DNA of 33,687 nucleotides, taken from assembly GCA_025057615.1 (NCBI GenBank), contig JANXBF010000001.1:1-33687 (forward strand). The letters run 5' to 3'. The notes below the pieces were generated by a model, which was not told the origin of the DNA, did no database searches, and worked only from the letters and a program-made list of their open reading frames with translations. The position numbers and the translations under genes are program-made. How positions within the stretch are numbered: position 1 is the first letter of the stretch; each line of letters opens with the position of its first letter. Below, piece after piece: positions 4,570 through 28,494 of the stretch. Source of the stretch: Candidatus Calescibacterium sp. Its GTDB lineage: Bacteria > DRYD01.

Positions 4570-5868
4570 CTATTTCAAAAGATCTTTGAGGATAAAAACA
4601 AAAGGCTCTATCTTATAAATCTCTTTACCATAAGATAAATAATCAGGATTATAAAGGTAAAACCTCACCTTTTTCCCTCTTTTGGAAACAAAATCAAAAG
4701 TATATATTTCATATTTAGAGGAAATAGGATTAACTGAGAATTTTTGTTTGTACTCAATATTTTTTAAAGTATTGAATAGAAGGCTAATTTGAGAAGTTTT
4801 TTCCTCATTTTTAGGAGAATACCATTTTCCATCTTTTTTCTTAAATCCAAATTTTGCTCTGCTATCAGAAATTGATACATTTTCAAAATCATCAAAATTA
4901 TCAATATGGTAACTAAATATTTTCTTCTCTACAATATCTCTGGTTAAAAAATCATTTATCTCAATTTTTGAATAAACAAGCAAAGGTTTCCTATATGAAC
5001 ACTTAACAATGTACTCATTAGAACCATACAAAAATATGTCAACTATATACCTTCTACTTTTTGAATAAATATCAATATTAGCTACTTTTGACAAGCGATT
5101 CACAAAACCTGGCTTATAAGAATCAATAGAATACTTAAAGTCATAATTATTAAGGAAACCAAAAAGAGAATTAATATATTCCTTGGATACCAATGTTCCA
5201 TCACTCAGCTTCCATAGATATTTTTCCTCTTCCTCATGATCTTTTTTCTTTTTAGCACTTTTATCCATTACTTCCTCTTTATATATTACATTGTTATTAA
5301 TGACAATTTTATCAACATCTTTTCTATCAATATTCAAAACTTTTTTCATCCTAAACTCATTGGCTTGCTTATCAAGATAGTTTAGGTCCCAGTAATTAAC
5401 GATATATATCTTGTTTTTAAATTCTGGCAGATCTATCCATAAATAAGTCTCATTAGTAAAATCATTTTTAATACCTCTCTGTAAATGATAGATACTGTTA
5501 GAATACAGGAAATATACATTTATTGGATTACTGAAAAACTGACTATAGTAATTCTTATCAAAATCAATAACTTCACTAACAGTAGGCTGATAAATATTAG
5601 AAATGATATTATCTATCATATAATCATAAGCTATATCATAAATCGGATAAACAAACCAAAAATCACCCTGCTTCGACAATTCTATTTTATTTGGATTATA
5701 AATAATTATCTTACTTATACGATCTTTATTAATCTTTTTTTCAAATATTGTTTTCTCCTTTTCTTCTTTTTTAGATTTACTATAATCCTGATAATAATTC
5801 CAAGCCAGTATTGAAGTAAGTATAGCCAAAACAATAGCTATAAAAAAAGTGAACCTATTTTCACTCAT
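4570..5868 (-). CDS. DUF4340-like membrane-anchored protein
   Basis: This protein of 432 residues has one N-terminal membrane segment (FFIAIVLAILTSILAWNYY), a Lys/Glu-rich linker, and a long extracytoplasmic region of repeated beta-strand units, including KIIIYNPNKIELSKQGDFWF and a second copy-like unit (SRAKFGFKKKDGKWYSPKN). That pattern, an N-terminal anchor and a GldG-like gene directly upstream fit DUF4340, a family usually found beside gliding-type ABC transporter subunits. Function is unknown; it may form an extracellular part of that assembly. Its ATG overlaps the TGA of the GldG-like gene by 4 bases (ATGA). A Lys/Asp/Glu-rich loop near residues 200-218 is probably a linker. Confidence 0.7.
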   Translation of the reverse strand: MSENRFTFFIAIVLAILTSILAWNYYQDYSKSKKEEKEKTIFEKKINKDRISKIIIYNPNKIELSKQGDFWFVYPIYDIAYDYMIDNIISNIYQPTVSEVIDFDKNYYSQFFSNPINVYFLYSNSIYHLQRGIKNDFTNETYLWIDLPEFKNKIYIVNYWDLNYLDKQANEFRMKKVLNIDRKDVDKIVINNNVIYKEEVMDKSAKKKKDHEEEEKYLWKLSDGTLVSKEYINSLFGFLNNYDFKYSIDSYKPGFVNRLSKVANIDIYSKSRRYIVDIFLYGSNEYIVKCSYRKPLLVYSKIEINDFLTRDIVEKKIFSYHIDNFDDFENVSISDSRAKFGFKKKDGKWYSPKNEEKTSQISLLFNTLKNIEYKQKFSVNPISSKYEIYTFDFVSKRGKKVRFYLYNPDYLSYGKEIYKIEPFVFILKDLLK

Positions 5869-7192: not shown

Positions 7193-10100
7193 CTACATAA
7201 CTCTTTCTTCAATTAGTTCTTCAACATTTACTTTCTTATAGTATGGATAGTTAGTTCCAACAGGAACTGGCTTACCTATAATTATGTTTTCCTTCAAACC
7301 TATGAGATAATCCCTTTTACCACTTATTGATGAATAAGATATAACCTTGGTAGTTTCTTGGAAAGAAGCAGCGGATAACCATGACTCTGATTCCAAAGCA
7401 GCCTTACTTATAGGTAAAACCTCAGGAATAGCCCTTATCAACTTACCTCCATTCTTTGCTATTATATCATTAATATAATCAACAACTTTTTTATCAACTA
7501 ACTCACCATACATTAGAGTACTATCACCAGGATCATCAACTTTGACAAATCTAAACATCTGCCTTATTATTATCTCCATATGTTTATCATGTATGAATAC
7601 ACCTTGACTGAGATACACCTTCTGCATTTCATCCAATACATAAAGTTGTGCGATTTCTATAGCCTTTACAACAGTACTATGATGTACAAGATCAACATCC
7701 TTGTTATCAAGCAAAACTTCCTCGATAACTCTATCTATAAATTCCTTAGGAGAAAGAGTACCAGCAACAACCAAACTACCGGCAGACACTCTTTGACCCT
7801 CAGAAACAACTATCCTCCTAGTGAGAGGAATTTCTAAGTTGTACTGTTTATTTGAATTTATACCCCTTAAAACAACAACTTTAGAAGAATGCTTTGTATC
7901 TATCCTTTCCACTATAGAGTCCTCTATAGCAAACAAATTACTATGTAATCTCGTTCTTTTTCTTACCTCAAGTAATTCTTGAACTCTTGGAATACCCTGG
8001 ATAATATCAGATTCCAAAGCAACACCACCAGTATGGAAAGTTCTCAAGGTCAACTGTGTTCCAGGTTCACCTATACTCTGGGCGGCAATGATACCCACTG
8101 CCTCACCCAAATCAACCAAAGTATTACCCAACCCAAGGTCTTCACCATAACATTTTCTACAAACTCCTTTGAATACTTTACATTTCAGAACACTTCTAAC
8201 AGCAGCTTCAACATAATATTTAGAAATCTCCTTTGCTTTATACCTGTCTATCAATTCACCCTTACCAACAATTAACTCATTACTCTCTGGATTTACAAAA
8301 TCTTGTGCAGCAACTCTTCCTCTAATCCTGTTAGATAAAGGTAATAACTCCTCTTCCATAAATACAGAAATTCTAGACTTAGATGATTCCCTCAGTTTTT
8401 TGTAAGCTTGCCAATCAATAATATCGTACTTATTTACTATCCCCTCAACATTTTCAGCAGAAATTCTTCCAAAAGATTTGTCCACTTCAACTTCCTCAGG
8501 CTCATATGTATAATTAACAACCTTTATCGGCTTAAGAACAATGAAATCCTCTGTGAGACAATCATCTTCCCTTACCACCACATCTTGAGCAACATCCACC
8601 AATCTCCTGGTAAGATATCCGGCATCAGCAGTTCTCAAAGCCGTATCAACCAAACCTTTTCTACCACCATGACTAGCTATAAAATAGTCAAATATTCCCA
8701 ATCCTTCTGTAAACGAATTCTTAATAGGTAAAGGTATTATCTCTCCCTCAGCATTGACCATAAGACCACGAATTGCAACCAACTGCTTAGCCTGATCAAC
8801 ATTACCTCTTGCACCAGAATTAGCCAACATCCAAATAGAATTCAATGGCTGATACTTAGACATATAGGTTTTAAATTCCTGGGTGACTTTATCAGTAGCG
8901 TCATACCATGTATCAATCACTTTTTTCTTATATTCTTCATCATTTAATAATCCCAAAGTATGCATTTCTTCCCATTTGGTTTGCTCTTTCTCTGCATTAC
9001 TTATTATCTCATACTTTTTGGGAGGTATAACCAATTCATCAATAGATATAGTAGTTCCAGATCTAGTTGCAAATAAAAATCCAATCTCCTTCAATTCATC
9101 TAAAACTGGCTGTGTCTTGTACATTCCATACTTATATATACATTCCTCAACAATCCATTTGAGTTCTTTCTTACCAACAACAAAATTTATAAATGGAAAA
9201 TCAGGTAAATGCTTTCTTATTGCATTATTGAAAATGATCCTACCAATAGTGGTCAATATTTTATTTTCTTGATAATTAATAACATTAGATACACTATTGG
9301 CAACCTTATCAAAATCAACCTTGTAATAAACCCAAGTGTGTAGTGGTAAATGTAATTCAAAATATCTTCTTTGAGCTTCTTCATAAGAAGAAATAAATAT
9401 ATTTACCCGTTTAGGATCCATATTGGGATCCTCAAAAGTTAGCCAAAAAGCACCCAAAACCATATCCTGAGAAGGAACATTTGCAGGTTCACCATTAGCA
9501 GGAATAAGCATATTATTAATGGATAATAGCAAATTCCTATACTCCAACATAGCTTCAACAGAAAGAGGAACGTGGACAGCCATTTGATCACCATCAAAAT
9601 CAGCATTATATGGAGCACAAACCAGCGGATGAATCTGTATGGCCTTCGTTTTAACAAGCTTAGGATAAAAAGCTTGAATACTCAACCTATGAAGAGTTGG
9701 AGCTCTATTAAGAATAACAGGAAAATTGTGAATAACTTTCTGAACAGTTGGCCATATTTCTGGCTTCCTTAATTCCAACATCCTCTTAGCTTTCTTTATA
9801 TTATCAGCTTTTCCATCTTCTATAAGCTTGTTTATTATAAAAGGCTTGAATAATTCCAATACCATCTCTTCTGGCAAACCACACTCATAAAACTTCAACT
9901 TTGGATTAACAACTATAACACTCCTACCAGAATAATCAACCCTCTTTCCCAAAAGGTTATACCTGAATCTACCTTGCTTACCTTGAATATTATCAGAAAG
10001 GGACTTGAGAACTCTCCTATTTGAAACAACTATAGGTCTCTTAGTTTTGGCATTATCAATTAGAGCATCAACAGCTTTCTGTAACATCCTTTTTTCATTA

Positions 10101-12172
10101 TTTATTATTATTTCAGGAGCCTGAATTTCTATCAACCTTCTTAACCTGTTATTTCTGTTAATAATCCTTCTATATAGATCATTGAGATCAGATGAAGCAA
10201 ATTTTCCACCCTCAAGTTGAACTATTGGTCTCAATTCCGGTGGTAAAACAGGTAAAACCTCCAATACCATCCACTCTGGCCTAACACCACCCTTTATAAA
10301 AGAATTTATTATACCCAGTCTTCTTAATAATTTTTTGTCTCCCTTCTTAACAGTAGTTAATAAATTTTTTATATTTGATTTTTCCTTTTCTAAGTCTATT
10401 TTAGATAGAAGTTCTCTTATAGGCTCTGAACCAGTCTCTAGCTTGAAAAATACAGTAAAATAATCTGAAAACATTCTTACAACTCTCTGAATAAACTTAG
10501 AATCAACAGAAGCAAAAATCTTATTAACAAAATGATCGTAAAGTTCTAAGATATCTGACTCAATTTCTTTCAAATTCTTAATAATCTCATTTATTCTATC
10601 TTTCGATTTATCTGAAACTTTTGATTTACTAAAAGACTCATATTCTTTCTTGTTTTCTTCATAAGCTCTCATTAATGAAAAATATTTCTCTCTGAGTTCT
10701 TTAACTTCACTCACAATTTTTTCCTTAGAATCCTTACTGACCTTCTCATCAAAATCAGAATACAGTTTCTTCAAATTCTCAATAATATCAACTATATTCC
10801 TAATATCAGATATAACAATCCTATATTCAACAAGTTCTGAAATCAAATTCTTTATCTCTCTAATAAGATGTGGATTATCCTGAACAAATTCTTGGTCTTC
10901 CTCTAATTTAGAAAGATTAACAATAATATCATTGCAATCATCACTTATCTTTTTCAAATCCTTACTTGAAAATTTATAAGAATTAATGAAAGATAAATAA
11001 TCAGAATAATTCTTAGAATTATCAATAATAGAATCAAGATACGATATAAACGGATAAACAACCATTTTCAAAACATTATCCAGATCTTTTTTAATTTTTT
11101 TATAAACGTTTTTATCCTTAAGAATAGAAAGCTTAGAACCTATATCAAGATTAATTAATCTCTCTATAAATTCAGACTTATCTTTATATTTTGTAATAAT
11201 TTGGCTTATTTTATTAACAGAAATCCTAACTATCTTCTCTATCTCCTCCTTAATATTTATTAACATGTTCAAAAACACAACTTTCTCTTTTTCATACTTC
11301 TCAGTTTCATATAGAAGCTCTTTTTCCTCATTTTTGAATATTTCCTTAAAAGCAATTTTATGTAGTAACCTTTGTATTTCAAGATATCCTTTATATCCCC
11401 TATCCGATCTGCCCTTATCTATATGCTCTATGTTTTCGAAAATTTTGATAAAATCATTGATCCTTTTATCTTTTCTGGCTTCTGAATACAATTTCTTGGT
11501 TAAGAAAGCATAATCTTCATCAAGCTTTCTTTCCAATTTCTCAATTTTTTTACTGTTCATCTGAAAAATCGGAGAGTTATCAATTAAAAAAACTCCAACT
11601 TTATTAACAAATTCAAAAGCCTTATCAACAACCTCATTTCCCTTTAGAACTTCGTATTCCTCCTCCAACCTTTTAACAAGCTCCCTTCTCTTATTTATAT
11701 ACCCAAGCTTAACTAAAAACATTAATTTACTTATATTATCCTGATCCAAATCAGTACAAACAAAAGACTCAAAATATACAACCTCCTTGATTTGTCTATC
11801 TTCAAGATCCAAAAGAGTGGATATTATACCTGGGTTACCTTGTAAAAACCAGAAATGAACAACAGGTGAGGCAAGCTCTATATGCCCCATCCTCTCTCTC
11901 CTAACATCGGACTTGGTAACCTCCACACCACATTTATCACATATGATACCCTTGGTTTTAATCCTCTTTCTCTTGTATTTTCCACAAGAACATTCGTAAT
12001 CTTTCTCAGGGCCAAATATCCTTTCACAGAACAATCCATCTCTCTCAGGCTTAAATGTCTTATAATTCTTAGTCTCAGGCTTTTTTACTTCACCATAAGA
12101 AAGCTCTCTTATCCTTTGAGGAGAAGCCAGTGATATTTTTATATATTTAATATTATTAAAAGTCAAAGTCAT
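7193..12172 (-). CDS. rpoC: RNA polymerase beta' subunit
   Basis: This is the catalytic beta' subunit. Zinc site 1 is Cys61, Cys63, Cys78, Cys81. The Mg2+ loop NADFDGDQMAVH begins at residue 856 with Asp858, Asp860 and Asp862. The switch/rudder region (GKQGRFRYNLLGKRVDYSGR) and zinc site 2 (the Cys of VREDDC plus CKVFKGVCRKC) are intact. At 1659 residues it is about 250 longer than E. coli RpoC. The extra length lies between FESFVC (about residue 139) and KKLLRRLGI (about 613), a Lys/Glu/Ile-rich, mostly helical insert at the site where Thermus and Thermotoga carry beta' inserts. A good ribosome site (AAGGTG) precedes ATG 12172, 21 bp after rpoB, and the GldG-like gene follows 11 bp later. 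Confidence 0.98.
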   Translation of the reverse strand: MTLTFNNIKYIKISLASPQRIRELSYGEVKKPETKNYKTFKPERDGLFCERIFGPEKDYECSCGKYKRKRIKTKGIICDKCGVEVTKSDVRRERMGHIELASPVVHFWFLQGNPGIISTLLDLEDRQIKEVVYFESFVCTDLDQDNISKLMFLVKLGYINKRRELVKRLEEEYEVLKGNEVVDKAFEFVNKVGVFLIDNSPIFQMNSKKIEKLERKLDEDYAFLTKKLYSEARKDKRINDFIKIFENIEHIDKGRSDRGYKGYLEIQRLLHKIAFKEIFKNEEKELLYETEKYEKEKVVFLNMLINIKEEIEKIVRISVNKISQIITKYKDKSEFIERLINLDIGSKLSILKDKNVYKKIKKDLDNVLKMVVYPFISYLDSIIDNSKNYSDYLSFINSYKFSSKDLKKISDDCNDIIVNLSKLEEDQEFVQDNPHLIREIKNLISELVEYRIVISDIRNIVDIIENLKKLYSDFDEKVSKDSKEKIVSEVKELREKYFSLMRAYEENKKEYESFSKSKVSDKSKDRINEIIKNLKEIESDILELYDHFVNKIFASVDSKFIQRVVRMFSDYFTVFFKLETGSEPIRELLSKIDLEKEKSNIKNLLTTVKKGDKKLLRRLGIINSFIKGGVRPEWMVLEVLPVLPPELRPIVQLEGGKFASSDLNDLYRRIINRNNRLRRLIEIQAPEIIINNEKRMLQKAVDALIDNAKTKRPIVVSNRRVLKSLSDNIQGKQGRFRYNLLGKRVDYSGRSVIVVNPKLKFYECGLPEEMVLELFKPFIINKLIEDGKADNIKKAKRMLELRKPEIWPTVQKVIHNFPVILNRAPTLHRLSIQAFYPKLVKTKAIQIHPLVCAPYNADFDGDQMAVHVPLSVEAMLEYRNLLLSINNMLIPANGEPANVPSQDMVLGAFWLTFEDPNMDPKRVNIFISSYEEAQRRYFELHLPLHTWVYYKVDFDKVANSVSNVINYQENKILTTIGRIIFNNAIRKHLPDFPFINFVVGKKELKWIVEECIYKYGMYKTQPVLDELKEIGFLFATRSGTTISIDELVIPPKKYEIISNAEKEQTKWEEMHTLGLLNDEEYKKKVIDTWYDATDKVTQEFKTYMSKYQPLNSIWMLANSGARGNVDQAKQLVAIRGLMVNAEGEIIPLPIKNSFTEGLGIFDYFIASHGGRKGLVDTALRTADAGYLTRRLVDVAQDVVVREDDCLTEDFIVLKPIKVVNYTYEPEEVEVDKSFGRISAENVEGIVNKYDIIDWQAYKKLRESSKSRISVFMEEELLPLSNRIRGRVAAQDFVNPESNELIVGKGELIDRYKAKEISKYYVEAAVRSVLKCKVFKGVCRKCYGEDLGLGNTLVDLGEAVGIIAAQSIGEPGTQLTLRTFHTGGVALESDIIQGIPRVQELLEVRKRTRLHSNLFAIEDSIVERIDTKHSSKVVVLRGINSNKQYNLEIPLTRRIVVSEGQRVSAGSLVVAGTLSPKEFIDRVIEEVLLDNKDVDLVHHSTVVKAIEIAQLYVLDEMQKVYLSQGVFIHDKHMEIIIRQMFRFVKVDDPGDSTLMYGELVDKKVVDYINDIIAKNGGKLIRAIPEVLPISKAALESESWLSAASFQETTKVISYSSISGKRDYLIGLKENIIIGKPVPVGTNYPYYKKVNVEELIEERVM
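10337..11755 (-). other. Large helical insert in RpoC
   Basis: This encodes about residues 140-612 of beta', between zinc site 1 and the segment that leads to PEWMVLEVLPVLPP. It is rich in Lys, Glu, Ile and Asp with heptad-like runs, so probably coiled coil. It has only one Cys and no recognised motif. Confidence 0.7.
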
Positions 12173-19245: not shown

Positions 19246-19847
19246 CAGTATTTTCCCTGTCTTAAAAAATCAAAAAGTTTTCTGAAAGCAATATATCTAT
19301 GGCTAATAGCACATTTAACACTAATCTCCATCTGCCCAAAAGTCAAAGCCATAGAAGGATATATGAAAATAGGATCAAAACCAAAACCATTATCACCCAA
19401 AGGCTGATCAGAAATAAAACCATCAACAACCCCCTCAAAAGAATAATATCTGGAAAAATCAAAAAGAACAACAACTCTACATACATACCTGCATTTTCTG
19501 GATTCCATCGGTAAATGACTAACCATATTAGAAAAAGCCAAATTCTTTTGCTCCTGTGATAACTTAGGAAAAATTCTACTAGTCTTCACACCCGGAAAAC
19601 CCAGTAATACATCAATTTCTAAACCACTGTCTTCAGTTATAACAGGCTTAAAAACTTGATGATAAACGTATTGAGCTTTCTTAAGAGCATTTTCATAATA
19701 AGTATTGAATACCTCTATATCTTCAGGCAAATCAATCTCTAACTTTTTTAACTCTATATTAAAAGTGGGATACTCCTCCTTATAAGAATCAAGTATCTTA
19801 CTAACCTCAATAAATTTATTATCATTTTTAGTTACAAAGTAAAACAT
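19245..19847 (-). CDS. rdgB: XTP/dITP diphosphatase (RdgB/HAM1 family)
   Basis: The enzyme hydrolyses deaminated purine triphosphates (dITP, XTP) to monophosphates and keeps them out of nucleic acids. The 200-residue protein has the family motifs: VTKNDNKFIEV at the start (substrate loop), TEDSGLEID at 71-79 with catalytic Asp73, FPGVKTSRI, GDNGFGFDPIF, and ISHRYIAFRKL near the end. GGGGAGG lies 7 nt before ATG 19847, giving a firm start. It overlaps the end of the epimerase-like gene by 16 bases and the start of uvrA by one base, so nucleotide-pool cleaning and excision repair sit in one transcript. Confidence 0.95.
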   Translation of the reverse strand: MFYFVTKNDNKFIEVSKILDSYKEEYPTFNIELKKLEIDLPEDIEVFNTYYENALKKAQYVYHQVFKPVITEDSGLEIDVLLGFPGVKTSRIFPKLSQEQKNLAFSNMVSHLPMESRKCRYVCRVVVLFDFSRYYSFEGVVDGFISDQPLGDNGFGFDPIFIYPSMALTFGQMEISVKCAISHRYIAFRKLFDFLRQGKY

Positions 19848-20635
19848 TTTTCAACCTCCCCAACAACTCCATTCTCAACATCCAAAGAATCAAAAACCTT
19901 TCCATAATCACCAAGCAAATTCTTAACAATCAAACCAGTGAAAAATGGATTAACCCTAAAAAAAAATCCTCCATAACCATAAAAATTCTTTATAAAACTG
20001 TTAAAGTGATTAAAAGTTGTTATTTTAAAACAATCAATCACCCTGCTTTCATTGAAATTAACAATATTACTAACAAGAAGCTCTAAAAAATCATCTATAC
20101 AGATAAAAGGAAACAAAAATGAATTGGGAAACATCAGTTCTACTCTAAAATCCAAAAATTTTCTTATTAAACTAACCCACTGACAATCAGAACTCAAAAC
20201 TATACCCAACCTGAATATTAAATGCCTGGCATTCTTCACTGTATCCTCCCAACTCAAAAAATAATCTCTCATGAAATTTGAATATACCCAAACAGCAGAA
20301 GGAAGAACAAAAACGAAATTACTGGCCCTATCACCAAATTGCTCCATAACTCTTCTCATAAAATCTATTCTACTTGACCATATTAAAAAATTTTTTTTCT
20401 TCATTGATCTGAAAGAAAATAGAGTTCTGAATATATTAGCACCAGCAAAATTAATAACAACCCCCCCTTCTATACTACCAGCCAATTCTTTAATTCTACC
20501 ATAATCATAAATCCTTTTATCAGGATTAACAATAGAATTGTCAGTAGTAAAAATGTAAATATTAAATCTCAAATTTCTATTCCTGCAAAATCTTAGGAAA
20601 TTCTTAGTAAGAAAAGAATTAGCAGAAAGTATCAA
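19832..20635 (-). CDS. TIGR01777-type epimerase homologue lacking the NAD glycine motif
   Basis: The 267-residue protein matches the YfcH/TIGR01777 extended-SDR family along its length: INFAGANIFRTLF with downstream SSRIDFMRRVMEQF, SAVWVYS (family: SAVGYYG), FRLGIVLS, CIDDFLELLVSNI and a C-terminal GLIVKNLLGDYGKVFDSL. However, the family's GATGFIG dinucleotide motif reads SANSFLT at residues 4-10, losing all three glycines, and the glycines after the VLS motif are gone too. It therefore probably does not bind NAD(P) in the usual way and may be a pseudoenzyme or carry an altered ligand site. The start is TTG 20635, 4 bp after miaB, with no close ribosome site. Confidence 0.75.
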   Translation of the reverse strand: MILSANSFLTKNFLRFCRNRNLRFNIYIFTTDNSIVNPDKRIYDYGRIKELAGSIEGGVVINFAGANIFRTLFSFRSMKKKNFLIWSSRIDFMRRVMEQFGDRASNFVFVLPSAVWVYSNFMRDYFLSWEDTVKNARHLIFRLGIVLSSDCQWVSLIRKFLDFRVELMFPNSFLFPFICIDDFLELLVSNIVNFNESRVIDCFKITTFNHFNSFIKNFYGYGGFFFRVNPFFTGLIVKNLLGDYGKVFDSLDVENGVVGEVEKCFTL

Positions 20636-21973: not shown

Positions 21974-23044
21974 TTATTTTAACAAAGTCCCAATATTAGG
22001 TGTTATTTCGCTCTCCTTTTTTCTAAGCCTAACTTTAAACCCATGCTTTTTAGCTAATAAACTAATCTCCATTATTTTATTCTCATCTATATTTCTACCA
22101 ATACTATAGTTTTCGTACTTCTCCTCTGCAGTTAAGATTATAGTTTCAGCCATACAAGCCAAAACATTGTTCTCAGGAAAACCAATAATATCATTCCAAG
22201 ATAGATCATTAAATAATTTCTTGAATTTTGGTTCCGAAGGCAGCTCTATAACACCACCCTCAATAACGGTAACATCTTTCCTATTTTTTATAACTTCCTC
22301 CGAAGTATTGTGAGGCATAGATATATCACATACTATAGCACCATGTCTCAAATATCTCGAAAATATTATCTCAGAAGGATTAGAAGTAGCAGTAATAACC
22401 ACATCAGAATTAAGACAAGAAGCAAGTATATCAGTAGATACGAAAATATTATCAGCTTTTATCTCATTTTTTAACACATTGAGTCTAGTCTTATTTCTTG
22501 CAACAGCAAAAACTTTTTTGTAATCTCTAACAACGAGTTTGGTTATTGCTTTACCAATTGCACCAGTTGCACCAACCACAGCAATATTCAAATCCTTTTT
22601 ATTCATTTTCCTTTTATCTAATATAATATCCAGAACTTCTAAAGAGGATGCAACCGTATAAGAAGCACCAGAAGTAAAATATAAAACATCACCAAAATTC
22701 TTAACAAGGTTCATTCCTGCTTTACCCACTATAGAAGTAAAAGCACCCAAACCAACTATCTTAGCACCAAACTTAATAGCCAACCTACTACCTTTAATCA
22801 GCTTACTCATTGCTAACTTTTCATCTTCAACAAACTGTTTGGACAACAGAGGTATAACAATAAACAACCCATAAACCCTTTCATTAGCAGAAGTTTCAAT
22901 CTCCATTTCAACTGCAACAAAAGGATCTATAAACTTAATAACACTCTCAACAAATTCAACACTTTTGTTTTGAAAACTTGGTATGGCTCTATATAAATCA
23001 ACAATACTCAAAGGATGTATAAAAAAAGCAAAAGGCCCCTTCAT
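21974..23044 (-). CDS. Acyl-ACP reductase (AAR)-like protein
   Basis: The 356-residue protein resembles the cyanobacterial long-chain acyl-ACP reductase that makes fatty aldehydes from acyl-ACP with NADPH. Matching segments in order are KIVGLGAFTSIVGKAGMNLV, FTSGASYTVASSLEVLD, the dinucleotide motif VVGATGAIGKA (GATGAIG at 158-164), VIEGGVIELP, and VLACMAETIILTAEEKYENY followed by SIGRN and AKKHGF. Cys297 aligns with the acyl-accepting Cys of the cyanobacterial enzyme. The N-terminus is divergent. ATG 23044 overlaps the stop of the SRPBCC gene (ATGA), so they are coupled. An aldehyde-deformylating oxygenase is not nearby, so the product, if an aldehyde, probably goes elsewhere. Substrate and reaction are inferred from similarity; a shikimate-dehydrogenase-like oxidoreductase is the alternative. 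Confidence 0.75.
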   Translation of the reverse strand: MKGPFAFFIHPLSIVDLYRAIPSFQNKSVEFVESVIKFIDPFVAVEMEIETSANERVYGLFIVIPLLSKQFVEDEKLAMSKLIKGSRLAIKFGAKIVGLGAFTSIVGKAGMNLVKNFGDVLYFTSGASYTVASSLEVLDIILDKRKMNKKDLNIAVVGATGAIGKAITKLVVRDYKKVFAVARNKTRLNVLKNEIKADNIFVSTDILASCLNSDVVITATSNPSEIIFSRYLRHGAIVCDISMPHNTSEEVIKNRKDVTVIEGGVIELPSEPKFKKLFNDLSWNDIIGFPENNVLACMAETIILTAEEKYENYSIGRNIDENKIMEISLLAKKHGFKVRLRKKESEITPNIGTLLK

Positions 23045-23484
23045 ACCAAGAGACTCTCAGCCCTCTCCTTTATTGCTTTCAACATTAATTGCACATTCTT
23101 CTTAACCTTAAATCTTATAGTAGGCATAATAAGGCTTGACAACATAGGAACATTAACATCAAAATCTAAATACAAAATTAACTTAGACCTATCCTGCGAA
23201 ATAGGAACAACCTGCCAATAACCTTCAAATTTATCTATATCACCTTTGATCAACCTATACTCCAGATACATTCTATCAGGGTAAAAAATTTCTTCTTCTT
23301 CCCACTTAAATATTATCCCATCAATATTTGCTTCCCAGTAAGTTTTTTGTAAATTACCTTCTTTTTCAATTATTTTTATAGATTTCACATCAGGTATAAA
23401 TTCAGGAAACTTCTCTGTTTGACAGGCAACATCGTAGACCAACTCAGAAGGAGCACCAACCTCTATTTCCTCCTTAATAACCAT
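23041..23484 (-). CDS. SRPBCC/START-fold protein (polyketide cyclase or Coq10-like)
   Basis: The 147-residue protein fits the SRPBCC superfamily: an N-terminal strand (IKEEIEVGAPSELVYDVAC) followed by the helix-turn EKFPEFIPDVKSIKIIEKEG, several beta strands around YWEANIDGIIFKWEEEEIF, and a long C-terminal helix (KNVQLMLKAIKERAESLL). This helix-grip fold binds hydrophobic ligands; Coq10 relatives bind ubiquinone. GGAGGT lies 6 nt upstream of ATG 23484. It heads a coupled pair with the AAR-like gene, so lipid or acyl-chain handling is a reasonable guess. It is not assigned to a specific subfamily. Confidence 0.85.
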   Translation of the reverse strand: MVIKEEIEVGAPSELVYDVACQTEKFPEFIPDVKSIKIIEKEGNLQKTYWEANIDGIIFKWEEEEIFYPDRMYLEYRLIKGDIDKFEGYWQVVPISQDRSKLILYLDFDVNVPMLSSLIMPTIRFKVKKNVQLMLKAIKERAESLLV

Positions 23485-25724: not shown

Positions 25725-26722
25725 CCTAACTTACCTCCTTCTATAAATTTAAACAAAATAAATAATAATCCTACTACAACAAATATGATATTAACAAAGT
25801 TAAATCTCAACAGAATATCCTTTTCTGAGTAACCCATTAATTCAAAATGATGATGCAGTGGAGTTATGTTAAATAGCCTCCTTCCATTAGTAATCCTAAA
25901 ATAAATAACCTGTAAAATAACAGACAAAGTAACAAGGAAATATATATAACCAAGAAACAAAAGATAAGACTCTGTTTTAGAAACAACAGAAAGATAAACA
26001 AAAATAGAGCCAATAGCCATCGAACCTGAATCCCCCATAAACACAGAAGCCTTTGGAAAATTGAAAAACAAAAATACCAAAATGAAACATATAATACCCA
26101 AAACCAAATAAACCATACCAACATTAGACAACAACAAAAAAATCACCATATATCCCAACAAAGTGGTGATGGACAAACTTGCCAGTAAACCATCCAACCC
26201 ATCAGTCAAATTCGTAGCATTTGTAACACCAGCGATTAAAAAATATAGAAAAATAAAATAAAACCCTCCAAAATCAACAACTTTTTCATGAAAAACTACA
26301 GAAGAAAAATTAACACCCAAATTCTCCTGAAAGTAATCGCTGTAACCACTCATAATATAAAACACTAAAGATGTAAGAATCAATTGCAAAAACAATTTTT
26401 CTCTAGCCTTCAACCCCAAATTCCTCTTATTCAATATTTTCATAACATCATCATAAAAACCAATCAACATACAACCCAAAAATAGTAAAACGAATATACC
26501 ATAAAGAGGTATAGGATAAAAAAAATTTAGAATTAAAGAAAAAAAGAGTATAAATATGGAAAATACGATACCACCAGCAGTTGGAGTACCCTCTTTAGAC
26601 ATATGATGTTTGGGAGCATCTTCCCTCACGTACTGCCCCAATTTGACTCCAATAAACTTTATATAAAACCTATAAGCTAAAAAACAAAATATAAACAAAA
26701 TAATTAAAAAAAACCATATCAT
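25721..26722 (-). CDS. mraY: Phospho-N-acetylmuramoyl-pentapeptide-transferase
   Basis: MraY transfers phospho-MurNAc-pentapeptide to undecaprenyl phosphate, making lipid I at the inner membrane. The 333-residue protein is about ten membrane helices with the family motifs: KHHMSKEGTPTAGG (residues 38-51), Asp91-Asp92, NLTDGLDGL with Asp174 and Asp177, MGDSGS with Asp231, and the His triplet at 290-292 (PLHHHFELMG). It starts inside the end of the GAF/GGDEF-like gene (ATGA overlap), with GAGGT 9 nt upstream. Finding it outside the usual mur/fts cluster and between a signalling gene and a metabolic gene is unusual. Confidence 0.97.
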   Translation of the reverse strand: MIWFFLIILFIFCFLAYRFYIKFIGVKLGQYVREDAPKHHMSKEGTPTAGGIVFSIFILFFSLILNFFYPIPLYGIFVLLFLGCMLIGFYDDVMKILNKRNLGLKAREKLFLQLILTSLVFYIMSGYSDYFQENLGVNFSSVVFHEKVVDFGGFYFIFLYFLIAGVTNATNLTDGLDGLLASLSITTLLGYMVIFLLLSNVGMVYLVLGIICFILVFLFFNFPKASVFMGDSGSMAIGSIFVYLSVVSKTESYLLFLGYIYFLVTLSVILQVIYFRITNGRRLFNITPLHHHFELMGYSEKDILLRFNFVNIIFVVVGLLFILFKFIEGGKLG

Positions 26723-28494
26723 ACCTTAACTACCTCTATTATTACCTTCTTATACTGCATATTTTTTGATAATCTTTCAATAGATAACTCCACCAATTGA
26801 GAAATTTCGATATCTTTATAAGGATAGACCGAACATATCATATAACTCTCACCTGAATAACCCAATAAATTCAATTTACTATCAACCATGTTTTTTATTC
26901 TTTTACAAACAGAATCAACTTTGTCCTTATCAACCTTGGATAGAACTATAATTATAATCCCATTTCCTATAAAAGATATCATATCGGTTTCCCGAATAAC
27001 AGACCTTATGGTTAAGTTTACCTCCCTTATAAACTTCATCTGCTCATCATTCAAATCTTGAAGATCCTTCCCAAATATATTATGGAAAGATATAAAAACT
27101 AGGGCAAAATTTTCATTATACCTCTTAGCTGAAAAACTCAAATTATTAATAAATTCCCATATAAAGTCAGGACTATAACAAAACAACCTATCATCCCAAA
27201 TAACCCTATTTATAGATTTACTATATAAAATAGCAGTGTATAACATTATACCTATAAGATTCGCTAAATCTATTAAGAAATCTTCTTTCAAGTTTTTATA
27301 TTTATCCTTATCAAGATAAGATATGTAAAGCATTCCCATTCTACTATTAGCAACATCTATAGGCACTGATATCGCCAACTGTTCTTTAGGATAAAATGGT
27401 TGTATTGGAACATCATTATCCTTATAAGCAAAGCCAATCTTACCTTCAACATAAGTATATCTATACAACTCCTCCATTTCTATCTTCTTATAATTGTAAT
27501 AAAATTCAGCATTTTCACCAGAAACAAGAAAGGTATCCAAACTACCCTCAATCTCATTCTTTATAAAAATAACCATTGTATCGTAATCAACAAATCTTGT
27601 AACAATCTCTATTATATCCTCAGATACCTTATACAAACTTTGAAAATCATCAATATTTTCAACTATAAAAAACAAGATGTTTCTCAAACGTTGCAAGTCA
27701 CTCTTAACTTCTTCAATATCCAAACTCATATCATTGAGACTTTTAGTCAATTCCTGTATAGCTTTGTCCTTTAGAATTAATTCGTTATTTAGAGCTTTTA
27801 ACTGAGTATATGTCTCATCCTTTCTATTTTGAAAATCTCTTACAACCTTCTCTATTTCAACATTAAATGCAATCCTCTCTTGCTCAATTTCATTTTTCAA
27901 AGCCTCCATTTGTTTTTCATATTGAAAAATCCTATTCTCAAGCTCAGCTATATTTGAAACCAAAAGCTCATTCTGTTCTCTGTAATTTTCAAACTGAGCC
28001 AAAAAATTCAATATTATTTTATTAATCATAAAAAAAACAAATATAACCAACATAGAAATCATAAAGTTAGCCAACAAAAAAGAAAAAAGATTCGGAAATA
28101 TTGGATCAGAAAACAAAGAAATAATCCCTGACAACCCTAAAAAAGAAAAAATTAAACTAATAGCAATCAAAATATATCTGAAGTAACTCTGTAAAAATTG
28201 AATAGAAGTAACAACAGGTACCATAAAAGATAATAATATACCAAAAGGATTCTTAGAAATAAACAGATAAGAAGCAGATAGAATACAATTTATAAACTCA
28301 AACGCCAAAATAACATTACCATTTTTCCTCATCAAAATAAATAAAAAATTCCAAACAAATAAAAACGAAATAATTATCCAACTGTAAAAACTGGATTCAG
28401 AAGATATACTACCAAAAATCAAAAATTGCGAAAACAATACAATAATAAGTGAAAATATCCTAACTAAATAATTAATATTATTATAACTATTCAT
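26719..28494 (-). CDS. Membrane GAF protein with degenerate GGDEF-like domain
   Basis: The protein has 591 residues. About five or six membrane helices occupy the first 155, followed by a coiled coil (residues 160-260, rich in Glu, Lys, Gln), a GAF-like domain (about 290-435, SEDIIEIVTRFVDYDTMVIF), and a C-terminal domain with the layout of a GGDEF domain. The cyclase motif is replaced by GNG and four Ile at 510-515, so it should not make cyclic di-GMP. It may sense a small molecule or membrane state. ATG 28494 overlaps the PNP gene by 8 bp, and its own stop overlaps mraY, so mraY translation is coupled to it. No ribosome site is obvious. Confidence 0.7.
   Translation of the reverse strand: MNSYNNINYLVRIFSLIIVLFSQFLIFGSISSESSFYSWIIISFLFVWNFLFILMRKNGNVILAFEFINCILSASYLFISKNPFGILLSFMVPVVTSIQFLQSYFRYILIAISLIFSFLGLSGIISLFSDPIFPNLFSFLLANFMISMLVIFVFFMINKIILNFLAQFENYREQNELLVSNIAELENRIFQYEKQMEALKNEIEQERIAFNVEIEKVVRDFQNRKDETYTQLKALNNELILKDKAIQELTKSLNDMSLDIEEVKSDLQRLRNILFFIVENIDDFQSLYKVSEDIIEIVTRFVDYDTMVIFIKNEIEGSLDTFLVSGENAEFYYNYKKIEMEELYRYTYVEGKIGFAYKDNDVPIQPFYPKEQLAISVPIDVANSRMGMLYISYLDKDKYKNLKEDFLIDLANLIGIMLYTAILYSKSINRVIWDDRLFCYSPDFIWEFINNLSFSAKRYNENFALVFISFHNIFGKDLQDLNDEQMKFIREVNLTIRSVIRETDMISFIGNGIIIIVLSKVDKDKVDSVCKRIKNMVDSKLNLLGYSGESYMICSVYPYKDIEISQLVELSIERLSKNMQYKKVIIEVVKV

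Follow-up and report, generated by a model that had tools for sequence, protein, structure and literature searches.

The window analyzed here is a stretch of 33,687 nucleotides from Candidatus Calescibacterium sp. It carries two overlapping genes on the reverse strand, one for an oxidoreductase and one for a small SRPBCC protein. A first-pass annotation, made from the letters alone, had described this overlap, the GATGAIG and GLGAFTSI motifs and a cysteine (Cys297) in VLACMAET. All of these were found again at the positions listed below, which give the evidence for each feature in brackets.

21974 to 23044, reverse strand: predicted AAR/PigE-type acyl-thioester reductase, 356 aa (NCBIfam, PDB and structure-model matches)
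23041 to 23484, reverse strand: predicted SRPBCC (Polyketide_cyc, COQ10/RatA-like) lipid-binding protein, 147 aa (Pfam PF03364, PDB TTHA0849, gene order in 11 loci)
23041 to 23044, reverse strand: ATGA overlap of 4 nt, formed by the SRPBCC stop and the reductase start (sequence)
22154 to 22156, reverse strand: codon of Cys297, the putative acyl-accepting cysteine (alignment)
22553 to 22573, reverse strand: GATGAIG nucleotide-binding motif, residues 158-164 (alignment)
22730 to 22753, reverse strand: GLGAFTSI motif, residues 98-105 (alignment)

Elsewhere, the window encodes a 2-oxoacid:ferredoxin oxidoreductase subunit, the one feature considered in relation to the anaerobic life that the first-pass annotation had called probable. 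The RNA polymerase beta-prime subunit (1659 aa, window 7193-12172) matches its Pfam domain 1 in two pieces, a split suggesting that several hundred residues are inserted close to the N terminus. Proteins encoded at window 26719-28494 (591 aa) and 4570-5868 (432 aa) have no Pfam match. Two genes downstream of the reductase, at window 19832-20635, lies a gene whose product is weakly related to the TIGR01777 (YfcH) oxidoreductases and scores far below the cut-off.

Families of the reductase and its partner

The window reductase scores 154 bits with the NCBIfam PigE model (NF053554), a match to the reductase half only and far below the cut-off of 850, and 105.4 bits with the model of acyl-ACP reductase, AAR (TIGR04058), far below the curated cut-off of 449.7. 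Among PDB sequences PigE is the first match (1e-22) and cyanobacterial AAR the next (1e-14). A structure model of the reductase (pLDDT 88.9) matches the solved AAR structures 6JZQ, 6JZU, 6JZY and 6JZZ with TM 0.77-0.84 and a best E of 8e-26, and it also superposes at TM about 0.8 on stearyl-bound AAR. Cys297 aligns with the cysteine of a cyanobacterial AAR homologue, and 31 of 32 diverse relatives retain it, with serine in the remaining one. In GATGAIG the invariant positions of the alignment are Gly158, Ala159, Gly161 and Gly164. This structural match and the cysteine alignment bear out the AAR-like fold and cysteine of the first-pass annotation. One reductase, L114:7992-9077, has serine in place of the catalytic cysteine (ASMAET).

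The sole Pfam family above its cut-off is Shikimate_DH (E 1e-9), which would be expected of a shikimate/quinate or amino-acid dehydrogenase-like enzyme lacking acyl-thioester activity. However, this match is confined to the nucleotide-binding part, the full-length matches and the fold are those of AAR and PigE (TM about 0.8, as opposed to about 0.35 with glutamyl-tRNA reductase), and the acyl-accepting cysteine is retained. We consider a dehydrogenase of this kind very improbable, and shikimate dehydrogenase identity was rejected since PDB matches and structure comparison give AAR/PigE.

Fold, catalytic cysteine and nucleotide motif are common to the window reductase and cyanobacterial AAR (TIGR04058; PDB 6JZQ, 6JZY), but identity is about 25% and far below the family cut-off, the two fall on separate branches, and the window enzyme lacks an ADO partner. 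Our tree was computed with long branches removed, as an earlier tree that included them had joined long branches. In it, five cyanobacterial AARs form a separate group (100/100, branch 3.87), while the window clade falls into one group (100/97) with 11 loci in which an SRPBCC gene is linked to the reductase and one more row. An AU test that joined the window clade with cyanobacterial AAR gave p 0.34, and the placement relative to AAR is therefore supported, short of proof. The affinity to cyanobacterial AAR proposed initially does not hold up against the higher score of the PigE model (154 versus 105 bits) and the separate branches, yet this AU value still tolerates a joint clade. The reductase is predicted to work like AAR and PigE, but we do not assign it to either equivalog.

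No alkane-forming oxygenase (ADO, PF11266) was detected in the genome that contains the window or in 19 relatives, whereas the search did detect it in the positive control, Synechococcus elongatus; absence from the window's own genome is not absolute, because this genome is 84% complete. This agrees with the earlier observation that no such oxygenase lies near the pair, and the cyanobacterial alkane route was rejected on the absence of ADO.

The SRPBCC protein matches PF03364 with 57 bits (E 3e-15), above the Pfam gathering cut-off of 23.4. Its closest solved relative in the PDB is TTHA0849 (E 1e-16), which we take from the TTHA locus prefix to be a Thermus protein. With the RatA model NF007999 it scores 32.8 bits, below the cut-off of 258. 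It shares family and length with the TTHA0849/RatA/COQ10 type, but differs from it in being of a type linked by gene order to a reductase and an aminotransferase.

Conservation of the pair and its gene partners

An alignment-based scan of GTDB genomes gave 411 relatives of the reductase, of which 80 were kept. They come chiefly from Clostridia and Negativicutes, and also from Eremiobacterota, Armatimonadota and others. Within the genus the pair is retained (G001-G003), and in a sister genus both genes are present and unlinked. In other lineages, 11 loci (L042, L048, L049, L053, L063, L078, L086, L097, L099, L118 and L121) have an SRPBCC orthologue immediately upstream of the reductase gene and in the same orientation, and the pair is therefore conserved, a check that the first-pass annotation had proposed. 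Since all 11 loci belong to the single tree group described above, the adjacency may have arisen once and then been inherited.

In loci with SRPBCC, the usual gene order is class-III aminotransferase, SRPBCC, reductase and a fourth gene that we call qn, which encodes a protein of about 300 aa that matches no Pfam or NCBIfam family. Most Clostridia have qn, reductase, greA and lysS in this order, greA and lysS being identified by eye. The reductase also occurs in natural fusions, with an aminotransferase in L029 and L031, with qn in L027 and with a PlsY-like domain in the Thermus-like genome G025. All four genes of this module are present in the window's own genome (G000), and in the window clade both the aminotransferase and qn are unlinked to the reductase. 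A serine-hydrolase-like gene, recognized by eye, adjoins the aminotransferase in G000 and G002 and qn in G004; this shared neighbor is a trace of former linkage. The genes concerned are as follows.

G000:C4:15582-16814: aminotransferase of the window's own genome, a separate gene that matches the PigE aminotransferase half
G000:C66:38813-39634: qn of the window's own genome
L053:9086-9994 and relatives: qn of another lineage
L142:10814-11659, L145:8692-9507 and L148:3174-4043: serine-hydrolase-like genes

A search of PDB sequences with the qn profile gave no match. The structure model of qn (pLDDT 93.7) matches general two-domain alpha/beta folds only, with TM up to about 0.43, and for these two reasons qn was given no function.

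Among 59 genomes qn was found in 11, all of them with the reductase, and in none of the 44 genomes that lack it. A close aminotransferase orthologue shows the same distribution (11 of 59, all with reductase; 0 of 44 without), where close means about 340 bits or more, a cut set after the scores had been seen, the next best score being 282 in reductase-less genomes. Fisher tests of qn and aminotransferase against reductase gave 5e-9, or 2e-7 and 4e-6 when the window clade is treated as a single case; for SRPBCC against reductase the values were 5e-7 and, counted in the same way, 2e-4. A search of the control genomes with the PigE family was uninformative on the reductase, as the aminotransferase half matches widely.

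Thirty further genomes were chosen through named loci, and all have the reductase. The aminotransferase was detected in 28 of the 30 and SRPBCC in 15, and in 13 of these 15 the aminotransferase immediately precedes SRPBCC, the matched segments lying 20-120 bases from each other. SRPBCC is thus tied to both enzymes and not to the reductase alone. As half of the surveyed reductase genomes have no SRPBCC, this protein is not essential to the chemistry. We also observed that, among reductase-containing genomes (G167-G196 and others), SRPBCC presence tracks that of an Omp85 outer-membrane protein (17 genomes with both, 14 with neither, 6 mixed; p 5e-5), an association that may reflect shared ancestry, and that the aminotransferase is about 40-60 residues longer in genomes without SRPBCC.

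Proposed chemistry of the module

PigE and TamH, from the prodigiosin and tambjamine pathways, offer a precedent. The reductase domain of PigE turns a thioester into an aldehyde, which is then aminated by its aminotransferase domain (PMC8341465). TamH makes fatty amines likewise, on substrate supplied by the acyl-ACP enzyme TamA; its reductase domain has been assigned to the AAR family with a matching cysteine, and acyl-CoA gave no product (PMC9594044). In profile comparisons, the reductase and aminotransferase of the module each find their closest match in the corresponding half of PigE, with the same cysteine and the same proposed order of reactions, but they are separate genes and are accompanied by SRPBCC and qn. 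Given that the module contains the PigE/TamH enzyme pair as separate genes, a fatty amine is the simplest product.

In the scheme that we propose by homology, the AAR-like enzyme would transfer an acyl group from its thioester to Cys297 and, using NAD(P)H, reduce it to a fatty aldehyde, which the class-III PLP aminotransferase (G000:C4) would convert to an alkylamine, as in PigE and TamH. Fold and gene order suggest that the most likely role of SRPBCC is to bind the hydrophobic, reactive intermediate, aldehyde or amine, or to hand it on from one enzyme to the other. A later step, such as the joining of the amine to a glycerate head group, may be carried out by qn, and the end product would likely belong to the N-glyceroyl-alkylamine phosphoglycolipids. 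The probable role of the reductase is to form the aldehyde in alkylamine synthesis. We consider it reasonably likely that four proteins, two of them encoded by the window pair, form a module for the synthesis of long-chain alkylamines, whose probable destination is membrane lipids.

Another possibility is that the aldehyde is reduced to an alcohol or oxidized and serves wax esters, ether lipids or chain recycling, the link to the aminotransferase being incidental. AAR itself releases free aldehyde, and in G004 and G005 the reductase gene adjoins an aldehyde dehydrogenase gene, with lpxA- and fabZ-like genes on the opposite side. However, alcohol dehydrogenase or wax synthase was not found as a conserved neighbor in the 80 loci, and the association with the aminotransferase is genome-wide and includes fusions, so we regard this fate of the aldehyde as unlikely. 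The first-pass annotation had suggested an aldehyde or wax/alcohol pathway, or else a different acyl-reduction system that has its own carrier protein. The second suggestion fits; a wax or alcohol product finds no support, as the conserved partner is an aminotransferase and points to an amine.

Possible relation to N-glyceroyl-alkylamine lipids

Since 1985, alkylamine phosphoglycolipids have been a marker of Deinococcus and Thermus. We detected the reductase in all 81 sampled Deinococcota genomes, which cover 26 genera; the label Deinococcota is based on the PlsY fusion in G025, the Thermus-like protein set of that genome and the literature. The fusion of a PlsY-like domain to the reductase was found in 8 of 9 further Deinococcota representatives; the ninth was read in a wrong frame.

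L028:8365-10026; L189, L191-L197: PlsY-like-reductase fusions of Deinococcota, with the PlsY-like part N-terminal

In the fused domain, GSGNxGATN and KGGKGVAT are changed to a conserved (Y/H)(N/A)(L/I)GxEN and an RGRG-like form; the reference for this comparison was a sequence taken as that of E. coli PlsY. From these motif changes, the fused domain may use another acceptor.

These fusions bear on a further alternative, in which the amine is not destined for membrane lipids but is small or medium-chain, or else a secondary metabolite of the type represented by prodigiosin and tambjamine. PigE and TamH, the most distant relatives, operate in such pathways. Module genes adjoin housekeeping genes such as greA and lysS and not biosynthetic clusters, the presence of the reductase in every sampled Deinococcota genome suggests a core function, and the fusion to a PlsY-like domain points to long acyl chains at the membrane. 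A secondary-metabolite amine appears slightly less likely still than an alcohol or oxidized product. In contrast to PigE and TamH, the module is very widely distributed, and its probable substrates are long acyl chains destined for membrane lipids.

In Thermus and Meiothermus, an N-glyceroyl alkylamine phosphoglycolipid is the major phospholipid; it is related to the Deinococcus lipid and has been described as a marker of the lineage (PMC3035268; PMC3398001). N-glyceroyl alkylamines are also listed for Moorella thermoacetica, and a 2025 study cited in the same source reports, according to its title, that such lipids dominate several Bacillota (PMC13274423). For Thermoanaerobacter wiegelii, which carries module genes (L095), only iso-diabolic acid is listed, in a table not meant for amines (PMC13274423). 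Synthesis of these phosphoglycolipids in Thermus, Deinococcus and Bacillota requires a fatty amine. The groups known for alkylamine lipids, Thermus/Deinococcus and Bacillota, are rich in the module, a match by taxon and not strain by strain, and this match between genes and lipids is the weakest link of our reading. Among open-licence papers we found none that names the genes of alkylamine-lipid synthesis, and the lipid link is a hypothesis for that reason.

The module, which occurs in many bacteria, is a good candidate for the alkylamine-lipid route in Thermus, Deinococcus and some Clostridia. A broader reading, to which we would give somewhat less than an even chance, is that Deinococcota, Bacillota, Eremiobacterota, Armatimonadota and the little-known lineage of the window all use these four genes as an unrecognized core pathway to N-glyceroyl-alkylamine membrane lipids. 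The module supplies concrete candidate genes for amine formation, and Thermus thermophilus, whose lipid is already characterized, is a tractable organism. If the broader reading is true, amine-based phosphoglycolipids would be far more common across bacteria than is known. The genes would also serve as a genomic marker for alkylamine lipids in uncultured bacteria. Misleading dehydrogenase names would be corrected, and a lipid-carrier protein would be added to the PigE/TamH reaction pair.
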